A stretch of DNA of 36,290 nt from Erysipelotrichaceae bacterium (GTDB taxonomy: Bacteria; Bacillota_I; Bacilli_A; Erysipelotrichales; Coprobacillaceae), in NCBI GenBank assembly GCA_017633115.1, contig JAGBPZ010000132.1:1-36290 (forward strand), given 5' to 3'. Below, piece by piece: positions 26,562-32,670 of the stretch. A program made the translations under genes and the position numbers. Positions within the stretch are counted from its first letter, which is position 1. The number at the start of each line of letters is the position of its first letter. The notes under the pieces are model-generated. The model did not search any database. It was given only the letters and a program-made list of their open reading frames with translations, and was not told the DNA's origin.

Positions 26562-27125
26562 TTATATCAGTGTATAAAGAATAATTCCTGCTAAACCAGA
26601 CCCAGCCATTACCCATAACGGATGTGGCTTAAACTTCCTAAGAATAATAAAAGCAGTTATGCTGATGAATAAAGCAATCGCATCAAATTGTTTTAAATCA
26701 GATGGAAGTGAACGCTGACCGTATAGAGCCATAATCAATAACGAAATACCTGCAGAAGCAATCATGGCAATGACTGCTGGTCTTAAACCAGCTAAAATAC
26801 CTTGAACCATATTTAATCCGCGGTAACGATAATAAATATAAGCCAATGTCATGACAATAACACATGAAGGGAAAATACAGCCTAGTGTCGCAATGACTGC
26901 ACCTGGGAATCCTGCTACTTGTATCCCGACAAAAGTTGCGCCGTTGATGGCAATTGGTCCTGGTGTCATTTCGGCAATTGTCATTATGTCAGCAAATTGT
27001 GTCATAGTCAGCCATGGGTGAACATCCACAACCTGATTTTGAATAAGAGGCATTGCTGCATATCCTCCACCAATACTAAAGAGTCCTATTTGAAAGAAGC
27101 TCCAGAATAATTCCAAATAAATCAT
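26562..27125 (-). CDS. Chromate transporter family protein, second half-size subunit
   Basis: 187-residue single-domain member of the CHR (chromate ion transporter) family, with about six membrane segments. Typical: LFWSFFQIGLFSIGGGYAAMPLIQNQVV (5-32) and MTPGPIAINGATFVGIQVAG (53-72). In half-size CHR systems two different short proteins work as a pair, and this is one of them. Whether the substrate is chromate or another anion is unknown. Its ATG overlaps the stop of the partner gene by 4 bases. Confidence 0.92.
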   Translation of the reverse strand: MIYLELFWSFFQIGLFSIGGGYAAMPLIQNQVVDVHPWLTMTQFADIMTIAEMTPGPIAINGATFVGIQVAGFPGAVIATLGCIFPSCVIVMTLAYIYYRYRGLNMVQGILAGLRPAVIAMIASAGISLLIMALYGQRSLPSDLKQFDAIALFISITAFIILRKFKPHPLWVMAGSGLAGIILYTLI

Positions 27126-27697
27126 TTCACTTCAGCTCCTTTCTTTTCATGAACAACTGTATCAATAGCTCCTATCACACCACATACAAGAATAATAATC
27201 AAGATATTAACGGCATAGAAACGAACAGCGATAAAAGCACCAATGAGTACAAGTAAAGGTAATAAGCGCTTCTTTTTGAAAACAACCTTTGCCATATCTA
27301 TAACGACATCAAAAATAACTGCAGCTACGCCACACAACATCCCTGCCATTGCCATACTTACAATTGGATTATCACGAAATGCCTTATAGAATAATGAAAT
27401 AATTGAGATGATGATAAGTGGAGGTAAAACTGTACCAACGACTGTCACTAACGCACCTAAAACTCCAGCGACATGATAGCCAACAAGAATCGAAGCATTG
27501 ACCGCAATAGCACCTGGTGACGATTGAGCAATAGCTGTTAAATCTAACATTTCCTGCTCTTCTATCCATTCTAGTTCCTGAACGAATTTTTTACGCATCA
27601 ACGGAATAATGACAAAGCCACCACCAAAAGTACAAGCACTAAGTTTAAAAGTTGATGTAAATAATTTGAGATAGCGATTATTTTTTAGATTAGCCAT
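27122..27697 (-). CDS. Chromate transporter family protein, first half-size subunit
   Basis: 191 residues from ATG 27697 (AGAGGTGG 4 bases upstream). The in-frame ATG at 27721 overlaps the -10 box and cannot be the start. CHR domain: LFTSTFKLSACTFGGGFVIIPLMRKKFV (about 13-40) and QSSPGAIAVNASILVGYHVAG (about 63-83). Partner of the gene at 26562, with a 4-base ATGA overlap, so the subunits are probably made in equal amounts. Transcribed divergently from a LysR regulator that likely controls it. Confidence 0.92.
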   Translation of the reverse strand: MANLKNNRYLKLFTSTFKLSACTFGGGFVIIPLMRKKFVQELEWIEEQEMLDLTAIAQSSPGAIAVNASILVGYHVAGVLGALVTVVGTVLPPLIIISIISLFYKAFRDNPIVSMAMAGMLCGVAAVIFDVVIDMAKVVFKKKRLLPLLVLIGAFIAVRFYAVNILIIILVCGVIGAIDTVVHEKKGAEVK

Positions 27698-27719
27698 AGT
27701 ACCACCTCTTTCTTGTCCC

Positions 27720-27748
27720 ATTATAGCCCTTGATTGTTGATAAGTGAA
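27720..27748 (-). promoter_or_regulatory. Promoter of the chromate-transporter pair
   Basis: TTCACT (27748-27743), 17-base spacer, TATAAT (27725-27720) on the minus strand; start near 27713. The two -35/-10 pairs of the divergent promoters interleave. Confidence 0.65.
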
Positions 27749-27758
27749 ATAATATAAT
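27730..27758 (+). promoter_or_regulatory. Promoter of the LysR regulator gene
   Basis: TTGATT (27730-27735), 17-base spacer, TATAAT (27753-27758), on the plus strand. Start expected near 27765. Confidence 0.6.
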
Positions 27759-27784
27759 ATTATTAATTTAATAACTAATATTAT
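27754..27784. promoter_or_regulatory. Candidate LysR operator
   Basis: ATAATATTA (27754-27762) and TAATATTAT (27776-27784) are inverted repeats; inside, TTATTAATTTAATAA (27760-27774) is a perfect palindrome around one base and contains T-N11-A. The block lies just upstream of the transporter -35 and over the LysR start, the usual place for a LysR activator that also represses itself. Confidence 0.45.
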
Positions 27785-27798
27785 ATAAGGAGACTATT

Positions 27799-28677
27799 AT
27801 GACATTACGCCATTTATTAATATTTCGTACCGTATGTGAAGAAGGATGTCATACAACCCACGCTGCCAATAAACTGCACATGAGTCAACCAGCGATATCA
27901 TTAGCCATTAAAGAAATGGAACAATATTATGGTGTTCTGCTTTTTGATCGTATAGGACGCAAACTGCAAATCACAGAAGCAGGCAAACGATTTTTACAAT
28001 ACGCCATTCATATTACAGATTTATTTGACGACATGGAGACGCAATTACGCGATTGGGATACAAAAGGATTACTACGTATTGGTGCGAGTATCACTATTGG
28101 ATCACAGTTCTTACCACAATATGTTAAGGCTTTTAGTCAAACTTACCCAGAAACTGAAGTCCATGTAATTATTGAACAAACAGAACGTCTGATACAAAAA
28201 CTTATCGCCAACGAATTAGATTTTGCTCTTATTGAAGGTATACCTCAAGATCAAAACATTATTATTCATCCATACATGGAAGATCATCTAGCAGTCATCT
28301 GTCCTCTAGAATCCAACTGGTCCATGGGGGAAACTATTTCTCTTAATGAGTTTAAACATGCTTCGTTTCTTTTACGTGAACCTGGAAGTGCAGCTAGAGA
28401 AGTCTTTGATCATGAGATGGAAAAAGCCGGAATTATCATCACTCCTTCATGGGTTTCCATGAGTACAACAGCATTAATTAACGCCGTTATTAACGGCTTA
28501 GGTATATCTGTCTTACCTCATCAACGCGTTAAAGATGTCATTAAAAGTGGAAAGGTTAAAGCTGTCAATGTCAAAGGTATAAGCTTTAATCGTAATTATT
28601 CAATCGTCTATCATAAAGATAAATTCTTAACAACTTCAGCTAAATCATTCATGGATATTTGTAAAAACATGAATTAA
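27799..28677 (+). CDS. LysR-family transcriptional regulator
   Basis: 292 residues, the only plus-strand gene. N-terminal winged HTH (about 3-62): RHLLIFRTVCEEGCHTTHAANKLHMSQPAISLAIKEMEQYYG then LFDRIGRKLQITEAG. The remaining 88-290 is the periplasmic-binding-protein-like effector domain with RIGASITIGSQFLPQYVKAF. SD AAGGAG is 7 bases before ATG 27799. Divergent from the chromate-transporter pair with about 100 bases between starts, so it is most likely their regulator. Effector unknown. Confidence 0.93.
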   Translation: MTLRHLLIFRTVCEEGCHTTHAANKLHMSQPAISLAIKEMEQYYGVLLFDRIGRKLQITEAGKRFLQYAIHITDLFDDMETQLRDWDTKGLLRIGASITIGSQFLPQYVKAFSQTYPETEVHVIIEQTERLIQKLIANELDFALIEGIPQDQNIIIHPYMEDHLAVICPLESNWSMGETISLNEFKHASFLLREPGSAAREVFDHEMEKAGIIITPSWVSMSTTALINAVINGLGISVLPHQRVKDVIKSGKVKAVNVKGISFNRNYSIVYHKDKFLTTSAKSFMDICKNMN

Positions 28678-28717: not shown

Positions 28718-29023
28718 TTATTTTTGTAACGTTGCTCTGACCTTGCCTTTAGGATCTGTGATAAGAAGACGTACCAACCAGATGATAAGCCCTAATGCTA
28801 CAACAGATAAACCAAGAAAGGCGTCGTTAACCATATCTGCTAAAGCTGGTGTAAAATATTCTGCATGTAATTCAGAATATTCAAAGATAGCATCAACAAG
28901 CCACATCAAAGAGGCCCCCCAATACATGAAGCACAAAATGCCTAATTGCATGTTATCATCTTTTCTTCTATACCACACAACAGTTGCTACGACAGCAGCA
29001 TAAACAGTAATCAATAATGTCAT
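28718..29023 (-). CDS. Small conserved-looking membrane protein B (unknown function)
   Basis: 101 residues, three membrane segments: about 2-17, 26-45 (LGILCFMYWGASLMWLVDAI) and 66-87. Polar and acidic residues fall inside or next to membrane stretches (Asp in WLVDAIFEYSELHAEYF, Asn-Asp in MVNDAF), unusual for a simple anchor and suggestive of ion or metal handling. Lies 13 bases after protein A (29037) and before the shared terminator, so the two are a transcriptional pair. No family name recognised. Confidence 0.8.
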   Translation of the reverse strand: MTLLITVYAAVVATVVWYRRKDDNMQLGILCFMYWGASLMWLVDAIFEYSELHAEYFTPALADMVNDAFLGLSVVALGLIIWLVRLLITDPKGKVRATLQK

Positions 29024-29036
29024 AAAGATTTCCTCG

Positions 29037-29432
29037 CTATACTGCTTTTTGATCTGTTTCTGGACGTCTTGCTATACTATCAGCAATTTTGCACATTATA
29101 AACCAAACTGAAGTAATAAGCAGTGCCATACATACCCCAACGGTAGCCATTTCATGGAACATTTCCGCTGCGTCTGCAGGATTACTCATCGCTGTTAAGA
29201 ATGGTGACCATGGTACAACCTCACCGTGCCATACATGTTCAAAAGCAAGCAAAACAGCACCACCAATGAGTAAATACTTTAACCATTTTAATTTTCTACT
29301 CATAGGAATAGTCATTTCATCTGCTTTGACATGATTTGTAGATGATTTTAATTGAATTTCTTTCTTTTCAACACTTTTTTCGATAGTGTGAACAACAACT
29401 GCTTCAGCTGCTGAGACTAAAAAACAAGCCAT
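29037..29432 (-). CDS. Small conserved-looking membrane protein A (unknown function)
   Basis: 131 residues. N-terminal hydrophobic start (MACFLVSAAEAVVVHTI), a charged segment (20-45), then two membrane segments (about 50-68 and 93-115). The loop between carries EHVWHGEVVPW and NPADAAEMFHEM, His/Glu-rich motifs that could bind a metal. No family name recognised. SD GAGGAGG is 7 bases before ATG 29432. Upstream is a structured leader (29433-29575) that may control translation; ECF S-component gene precedes it. Confidence 0.82.
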   Translation of the reverse strand: MACFLVSAAEAVVVHTIEKSVEKKEIQLKSSTNHVKADEMTIPMSRKLKWLKYLLIGGAVLLAFEHVWHGEVVPWSPFLTAMSNPADAAEMFHEMATVGVCMALLITSVWFIMCKIADSIARRPETDQKAV

Positions 29433-29440
29433 TTAATAAT

Positions 29441-29549
29441 CCTCCTCTTTTTTATATACTCTTCTGAGGGGTTTAGATCTTCATGATCTCAATTTCTTAA
29501 AAAGCTTTAAACAATGCTTCTGCATCAAAGATGTAGTTCATCTACATCT
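29441..29549 (-). promoter_or_regulatory. Structured leader with two AUGAA-loop hairpins, possible riboswitch
   Basis: On the transcript: hairpin 1 AGAUGUAG-AUGAA-CUACAUCU (29549-29529), then about 40 bases, then hairpin 2 AGAUC-AUGAA-GAUCU (29489-29475). Both perfect stems carry the same pentaloop AUGAA. Hairpin 2 is followed by CCCCUC (29471-29466), which can pair with GAGGAG of the ribosome site (29447-29442) for the gene at 29432, with one mismatch. The geometry suits a translational switch. It does not match a riboswitch class I can name. Confidence 0.4.
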
Positions 29550-29575
29550 CATTTTCAAAACAAATATAATTGTCA

Positions 29576-30103
29576 CTAGGCCGATTTAAATTTACTGAAA
29601 GCATTGACAATCAATGGAATCAAGATTAGTTGCAGAATAATACCAGGAATTGCATTCAACAATGCCCCTGCAAGAAACGCTGCAAATGTAAACTGACCAC
29701 CAGTAATGCCTAATAACACCATCTGTGCAAGACCCCAGACAATACGACCTGAGATCATGGCAATAATTAATGTCACATAGATTTTCGCAAGTTTGTCAGT
29801 ACCGATCATTTCTGCAAGCAAACCACTGACAAAGCCATATGTCATTAATTCAAATGCCATCCCAATTGCCATTGGGAACATGACTGGAAAACCAAATAAT
29901 ACTGATCTTAATAGTGGACAGATTAGACCAACAATCATACCATATTTCCAACCACAGAAGAATCCACATAATAACACTGGGAAATGCATAGGCGAAAGCA
30001 TAACACCAATTTGTGGAATTTGTCCTGTAATAAATGGTAATACCTGCCCTATAGCCAAGAACAAAGCGGCTTTAGTAATATTTGATACAGAATTCTTATT
30101 CAC
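29576..30103 (-). CDS. ECF transporter S-component
   Basis: 175 residues, six membrane segments, the substrate-binding subunit of an energy-coupling-factor vitamin/metal transporter. Typical: N-terminal ALFLA in KAALFLAIGQVLPF, i.e. the AxxxA motif used to dock the T-subunit, and MHFPVLLCGFFCGWKYGMIVGLICPLLRSVLFG. No EcfA/EcfT genes are in the window, so it would be a group II type sharing a common energising module. Substrate not evident. GTG 30103 is preferred (7 bases after AAAGGAGG); ATG 30109 lies one base after the SD. It may be co-transcribed with the two small membrane proteins downstream. Confidence 0.85.
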   Translation of the reverse strand: MNKNSVSNITKAALFLAIGQVLPFITGQIPQIGVMLSPMHFPVLLCGFFCGWKYGMIVGLICPLLRSVLFGFPVMFPMAIGMAFELMTYGFVSGLLAEMIGTDKLAKIYVTLIIAMISGRIVWGLAQMVLLGITGGQFTFAAFLAGALLNAIPGIILQLILIPLIVNAFSKFKSA

Positions 30104-30228
30104 TATCATTCCTCCTTTAGCTCGGTATCATTTGAAAAGTGTTGAAAATATATTATTCAATCACTACAGCTTAATATTATATAGTATTTTTTAGAAAATA
30201 GCTAATATAATGACTTCTTAACCGAATT

Positions 30229-31919: not shown

Positions 31920-32564
31920 TTAACATTCTTTCAGCCTTTTTTGAAGTTCCACTTTTACATCAGATAATTGACTGTTTGTTAAAATAGGTATCAAATCATT
32001 AATCTCATCTATTTCGCAATCCCACCACTTAAATCTAAGTAAAAGATCAATCAGTTCATCATCAAAACGGCGACGTAAAACTTTAGCAGGGTTACCAGCA
32101 ACGATTGTATATGGTTTTACATCACTGCCAACTACACTATTAGCCCCAATGATCGCACCATCACCAACATGGACTCCAGGAAGAATGACGGCATTTTGAC
32201 CAATCCAGACATCGTTGCCAATGATAGTATCTCCTTTATAAGGCATATCCGAAAATTCTGGAGCTTTCATTTCCCAACCTTCCAGGGTATAAAACGGGAA
32301 AGTAGTGACTGCATTCATTTGATGATTAGCATCATTCATGACAAATTCTACACCGGTAGCGATTTGACAGAATTTACCAATAATCAATTTATCTTTACTC
32401 CATGGATAAAAGTGAGTGACATGACTTTCAAACTCTGAATCCGCAATATAGGAAAAATCACCTACAATAATATTGGGATTAGTAATCGTAGGTTTGATAT
32501 AGATTTCATTGTCATATCCTGGTATTGGATGGATGACATTTGGATCAGGGGAATTTTGTCTCAT
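31920..32564 (-). CDS. Vat-like xenobiotic O-acetyltransferase (left-handed beta-helix)
   Basis: 214 residues from ATG 32564 (GAAGGTGG 7-8 bases upstream; ATG 32618 rejected). Belongs to the xenobiotic acetyltransferases that include streptogramin A acetyltransferases (Vat) and CatB. Alignment from memory: FIKP-like YIKPTITNPNIIVGDFSY, YPWSKDKLIIGKFCQIATGVEFVMNDANH with His81 at the Vat catalytic position, GWE, GDTIIGNDVWIGQNAVILPGV, and RFDDELIDLLLRFKWWD. Chromosomal, monocistronic. Whether it confers streptogramin resistance cannot be told: many chromosomal homologues do not. Confidence 0.88.
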   Translation of the reverse strand: MRQNSPDPNVIHPIPGYDNEIYIKPTITNPNIIVGDFSYIADSEFESHVTHFYPWSKDKLIIGKFCQIATGVEFVMNDANHQMNAVTTFPFYTLEGWEMKAPEFSDMPYKGDTIIGNDVWIGQNAVILPGVHVGDGAIIGANSVVGSDVKPYTIVAGNPAKVLRRRFDDELIDLLLRFKWWDCEIDEINDLIPILTNSQLSDVKVELQKRLKEC

Positions 32565-32670
32565 AATAACACCACCTTCGACATATTTATTATATCTTTT
32601 ATGATGTTTGATATCCACTTGATTAACATCAGTTCAATAATTACTTTTATTTTTTGATTATAATTCAACT

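Follow-up and report, generated by a model that had tools for sequence, protein, structure and literature searches.

The locus raises the question of what controls a pair of small membrane proteins and which signal their leader might read. The window, i.e. the whole stretch of 36,290 nucleotides that was analysed, carries on its minus strand a leader between the gene of an ECF transporter S subunit (P0003) and that of a 131-aa membrane protein (P0001), whose usual partner is a 101-aa membrane protein (P0002). No family was found for P0001 in Pfam or NCBIfam, and a structure search yielded nothing; at least 581 relatives were confirmed, and the best 80 of them originate mostly from rumen and gut Firmicutes. 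Further neighbors in the window are a relative of Vat-like streptogramin A acetyltransferases (31920-32618; 259.9 bits versus a cut-off of 300) and a split two-gene chromate transporter (26562-28677) that is divergent from a regulator of the LysR family. The features of the locus are as follows.

29576..30109, minus strand: P0003, ECF transporter S subunit, neighbor upstream of the leader
29563..29590, minus strand: possible promoter TTTAAA-16-TATATT, a weak consensus match (9/12) that ends 13 nt upstream of hp1; the number of equally good promoter-like sites is not far above chance
29512..29550, minus strand: module 1 as a whole, loop-to-loop distance 15 nt
29550-29528, minus strand: hp1 of module 1, GAGATGTAG-ATGAA-CTACATCTT, 9 pairs
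29527-29512, minus strand: hp2 of module 1, TGATGC-AGAA-GCATTG
29459..29489, minus strand: module 2 as a whole, loop-to-loop distance 14 nt
29489-29475, minus strand: hp3 of module 2, AGATC-ATGAA-GATCT, 5 pairs
29466..29471, minus strand: anti-Shine-Dalgarno (anti-SD) strand CCCCUC (DNA CCCCTC), overlapping the 5' strand of hp4 and paired with the Shine-Dalgarno (SD) site in the minimum-energy fold
29468-29459, minus strand: hp4 of module 2, CTC-AGAA-GAG
29441..29447, minus strand: SD site GAGGAGG of P0001, predicted to be 97-100% paired, one bulged base excepted
29037..29432, minus strand: P0001, 131-aa membrane protein (MACFL...FEHxWHGE), first gene controlled
28718..29023, minus strand: P0002, 101-aa membrane protein

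The earlier note had drawn attention to two perfect hairpins with the identical pentaloop AUGAA on unlike stems and to a CCCCUC segment facing the ribosome site. Both hairpins (hp1 and hp3) are present, and so is the anti-SD segment, with CCCCUC (29471-29466) opposite GAGGAGG (29447-29441). Their interpretation as one two-hairpin unit is not supported, as the leader comprises four hairpins in two tandem modules, each consisting of an AUGAA hairpin followed by an AGAA hairpin; hp1 and hp3 occupy equivalent positions of the two repeats, and hp2 and hp4 had been overlooked. A pair of perfect hairpins (at least five Watson-Crick pairs) with the same pentaloop no more than 80 nt apart occurs once in the window, read on either strand, and is absent from 60 local shuffles. 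Taken alone, the whole leader has an unremarkable fold energy (z = -1.9), and the case for this candidate element rests on comparison and not on energy. A -10 box upstream of hp1 is also found in several relatives.

Both strands of 505 kb of fetched loci were searched with a strict descriptor for the two-hairpin module; each of its seven distinct matches lies in the leader of a P0001-family gene, and shuffled sequence gave none. The covariance model R1, which was built from 12 modules with none taken from the window, detects module 2 (29454-29492; 29.3 bits, E 2.3e-4) as well as module 1 (29510-29549; 20.5 bits, E 0.034) in a search of 0.5 Mb, and module 2 is the top match of a genome-wide search in the window genome (E 9e-4). 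At E<=0.1 all 25 matches of R1 are on the coding strand and within 5' leaders, and about half of them lie outside the training set. A single copy of the element was found in the window genome, where the remaining R1 matches fall into coding sequence or are chance-like. Matches in L106-L108, located inside coding sequence, were dropped, and those of a second model (R2) in L182 and L188, which are antisense to the gene, were taken as chance.

A total of 46 module copies was compared, partly picked for having hairpins, so that the following figures for pairing and covariation are inflated: 92% of the cells are paired, and double changes were computed for 162 cells, compared with 48 for the shuffles and 17-62 for the slid controls (fitted alignment). 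The first loop is ANGAA or AGAA (ATGAA in 22 copies, AGGAA in 11 and AAGAA in five), the second is of the NGAA type (AGAA in 18, TGAA in 15), and the loop-to-loop distance amounts to 14-16 nt in 39 of the 46. The loop-closing pair is mostly C-G; hp1 of the window, closed by an inverted G-C pair, is the sole such case, all others being C-G, U-G or U-A. The unbiased evidence is the held-out detection, the position and the gene context. It might be objected that any resemblance to the hairpin loops of ordinary terminators and leaders is fortuitous, given that AT-rich leaders often contain short hairpins and that the z-value of the fold is only -1.9. We give this objection practically no weight, and it is already contradicted by the held-out detection, the fixed spacing, the lack of shuffle matches and the 16 of 16 blind matches in one gene set described below.

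Across the leaders of homologues the stems vary and the loops stay constant, in agreement with the selection on the loops that the earlier note had proposed, and the comparative evidence supports its view of a regulatory leader. Its expectation that the AUGAA loops recur in homologues held for about a quarter of the P0001 family, as the tandem module heads 18 of the 79 sampled genes, and failed for the other three quarters. The latter indeed lack the paired hairpins, the condition named at the outset as a refutation, but these genes carry other leaders. A palindrome of the CCCCCC-GGGGGG type, located upstream of the -10 box, is frequent among motif-less homologues (L011, L032, L034, L047, L048, L049, L057, L059, L070, L077, L084) and is followed by CTTGT or TTGCG in several of them. 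It is probably the operator of a DNA-binding regulator, which is perhaps metal-responsive.

When 397 Lachnospiraceae and 391 Clostridia genomes were scanned blind with model R2, 16 distinct leaders emerged, all of which precede members of one gene set, namely, the P0001 family (six), ECF-S subunits (six), larC (one), a NikA-like substrate-binding protein and the ABC operon it belongs to (one), a methyltransferase with a NikB-like permease (one) and a DUF3842 gene (one). Additional copies are located upstream of NikA-like operons (L160, L165, L166), a methyltransferase-permease operon (L167), larE (L162), larC (L017) and a methyltransferase (L024), and larB, larC and larE were found within linked operons. 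ECF-S leaders with the motif are those of L110, L121, L139, L141, L142, L144 and L145, and P0003 of the window shares 58% identity with two S subunits that elsewhere carry motif leaders. Leader and genes occur across Erysipelotrichaceae, Lachnospiraceae and Oscillospiraceae, and the carriers are mainly rumen and gut Firmicutes. For the window itself, synteny with an Erysipelotrichaceae MAG (L017) fits better than an origin in Negativicutes. The common denominator of the gene set is nickel and the nickel-pincer cofactor, which takes the place of the vitamin theme suggested by the earlier note. The ABC and ECF transporters are assigned to nickel by similarity only, and the NikA-like scores lie under the NCBIfam cut-offs. 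We infer that the membrane pair P0001/P0002 itself handles nickel. In three Erysipelotrichaceae relatives of the window (L002, L003, L005), whose pair lacks the motif, genes for urease gamma and beta plus a small membrane protein are located downstream of P0001/P0002. The larC gene of the window genome (G000) is apparently split across the ends of two contigs, C63 and C95 (L114, L112), and no motif was found in its leader.

We regard it as likely that the leader as a whole is a tandem-module, ON-type attenuator of a regulon for nickel uptake and the nickel-pincer-nucleotide (NPN) cofactor. Points against this attenuator are the single copy in the window genome with its motif-less larC, the inverted loop-closing pair of hp1 in the window, and the three quarters of P0001 homologues without the motif.

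The computed structures of the relatives provide the basis for its proposed mode of action. Among 30 3'-most modules, about 26 have an intrinsic terminator that begins 0-1 nt past the hp3 loop and uses the 3' arm of hp3 as its own 5' arm; hp4 often forms the terminator apex. Because the terminator starts right after the hp3 loop, hp3 and terminator are mutually exclusive, and a stabilised hp3/hp4 should thus prevent termination. No terminator was found in the leader of the window; its ribosome site is predicted to pair with CCCCUC. The fold of this leader over 72 nt reaches -10.5 kcal/mol with the SD site sequestered versus -5.8 with hp4 enforced, whereas over 175 nt the minimum is -34.0 kcal/mol and all four hairpins enforced give -32.2; the balance of ON and OFF hence depends on the stretch folded. 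Terminator and SD platforms predict one and the same sign, i.e. that a bound module would correspond to the ON state.

According to the proposed mechanism, the leader would act as a cis-acting attenuator with two tandem copies of a two-hairpin candidate binding module. Without effector the OFF fold would prevail, which in most relatives would be the terminator sharing the hp3 arm and in the window the helix of CCCCUC with the SD site. An effector that signals the need for nickel or NPN would bind the hairpin loops and stabilise hp3 and hp4, neither terminator nor SD helix could form, and the gene pair would be expressed.

The nature of this effector leaves three candidates. A small ligand read directly by the RNA is a serious possibility that falls a little short of an even chance; the tandem modules would then form a riboswitch that, like the two-hairpin aptamers of guanidine-II, involves no protein, and its ligand could be an NPN precursor, some metal complex or a different metabolite. 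The very short conserved loops and the two tandem modules fit such a riboswitch, as do the terminator or SD platform, the narrow gene set and the occurrence of leader and genes in all three families. However, the ANGAA and NGAA loops are not complementary, so that a binding pocket of kissing loops as in guanidine-II is not evident, and free nickel as the ON ligand of nickel uptake genes would have the wrong sign.

The second candidate is the protein DUF3842 (PF12953), which, itself or through a partner, may sense the nickel or NPN status and bind the paired loops as an antiterminator, akin to ANTAR proteins that bind dual hairpins. It is present in 23 of 25 motif genomes versus 69 of 299 random Lachnospiraceae (Fisher 5e-12, relatedness ignored). 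Among genomes with P0001 the motif occurs in all six that harbor DUF3842 and in none of the 20 that lack it (p 4e-6), the latter corresponding to the Lachnospiraceae examined in which P0001 has no motif, 20 of 20 being also devoid of DUF3842. The DUF3842 gene is often the direct upstream neighbor of genes with the motif, and in L138 it has a motif leader of its own. The motif label on the DUF3842 tree requires two changes versus 11 in shuffles, and the fixed loop spacing is compatible with a dimeric protein. Yet DUF3842 was found neither in the window genome (95.9% complete) nor in G076, and its absence from the former counts against a role as necessary partner. Moreover, the co-occurrence is equally expected of a mere member of the pathway, and the predicted Rossmann-like fold, with poor PDB matches, gives no hint of RNA binding. 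No paper mentioning DUF3842 was found in the open literature. The protein mostly has the QGGG form in motif genomes and mostly the QGG[RK] form where the motif was not seen (L015-L168).

We consider DUF3842 an unlikely effector, albeit the best protein candidate, rate the directly sensed small ligand somewhat above it, and judge another protein to be rather improbable as well. The confidence placed in the attenuator overlaps with that in the DUF3842 and direct-ligand readings, because both describe the same switch with a different effector.

The element is not mentioned in the open papers searched, no description of an NPN riboswitch was found in them, and the main text of two surveys of new RNAs contains no nickel or lar motif; a prior description of the element is unlikely, with the 224-motif survey falling outside the literature search. 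We tentatively propose, at somewhat less than even probability, that a new RNA class reads the state of NPN synthesis or the nickel supply, directly or via DUF3842, and that P0001/P0002 form together with the ECF-S subunit a new uptake system for nickel or an NPN precursor. If true, this would be the first NPN-linked riboswitch, or DUF3842 would represent a new family of RNA-binding proteins. The element would offer a regulatory handle on genes that serve nickel or the nickel-pincer cofactor in bacteria of the gut and rumen, link the uncharacterised P0001/P0002, ECF-S and DUF3842 families to one pathway through shared control, and supply a compact RNA for direct testing of a new ligand class or RNA-binding protein family.

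Like riboswitches in general, the element combines a conserved structured leader with a terminator or an SD platform. It resembles guanidine-II (mini-ykkC) in that its two hairpins have similar loops but different stems, and differs from it in the fixed spacing, the non-ACGR loops and the lack of guanidine genes. Guanidine-II requires ACGR loops in both hairpins, whereas the 46 copies have ANGAA/AGAA plus NGAA, and the rejection of this class by the earlier note was thus justified. At the gathering score Rfam has no relevant match (guanidine-II, NiCo) in the window, at 16 leader loci and at another 20 loci, and at E<=10 it yields three weak unrelated matches in the leader.

The NiCo (czcD) riboswitch responds to nickel and cobalt and is associated with efflux genes. 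The nickel/cobalt theme is shared, but its architecture is different, the genes controlled here serve uptake and cofactor synthesis, and the Rfam search gave no covariance-model match to NiCo.

The closest parallel in style is provided by the targets of ANTAR antiterminators of the NasR/EutV type, with which the element shares the small hairpin pair, the conserved loops, the fixed spacing and the control by preventing termination. The overlap of the second hairpin with an intrinsic terminator is present in the relatives, the window itself having no terminator. Urea and ammonium genes are among the ANTAR targets (PMC3369931), and the element could accordingly be such a target in front of nitrogen genes, which we hold to be very improbable. 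ANTAR target loops are hexanucleotides with A1 and G4 (PMC3369931, PMC8934654), whereas the 46 copies have loops of the ANGAA/AGAA and NGAA types. An ANTAR domain was found neither in the window genome, in a search whose control genomes were likewise silent, nor in seven of 19 motif genomes, strong ones included. Of five ANTAR loci examined, two (L118, L119) are next to an apparent glutamine synthetase, and none of the five has nickel genes as neighbors. With its two modules in tandem, its nickel and NPN genes and many carriers devoid of ANTAR proteins, the element appears to represent an undescribed class of tandem two-hairpin attenuators that broadly resembles dual-hairpin antiterminators in style, placed by the tests run outside guanidine-II, ANTAR and NiCo.
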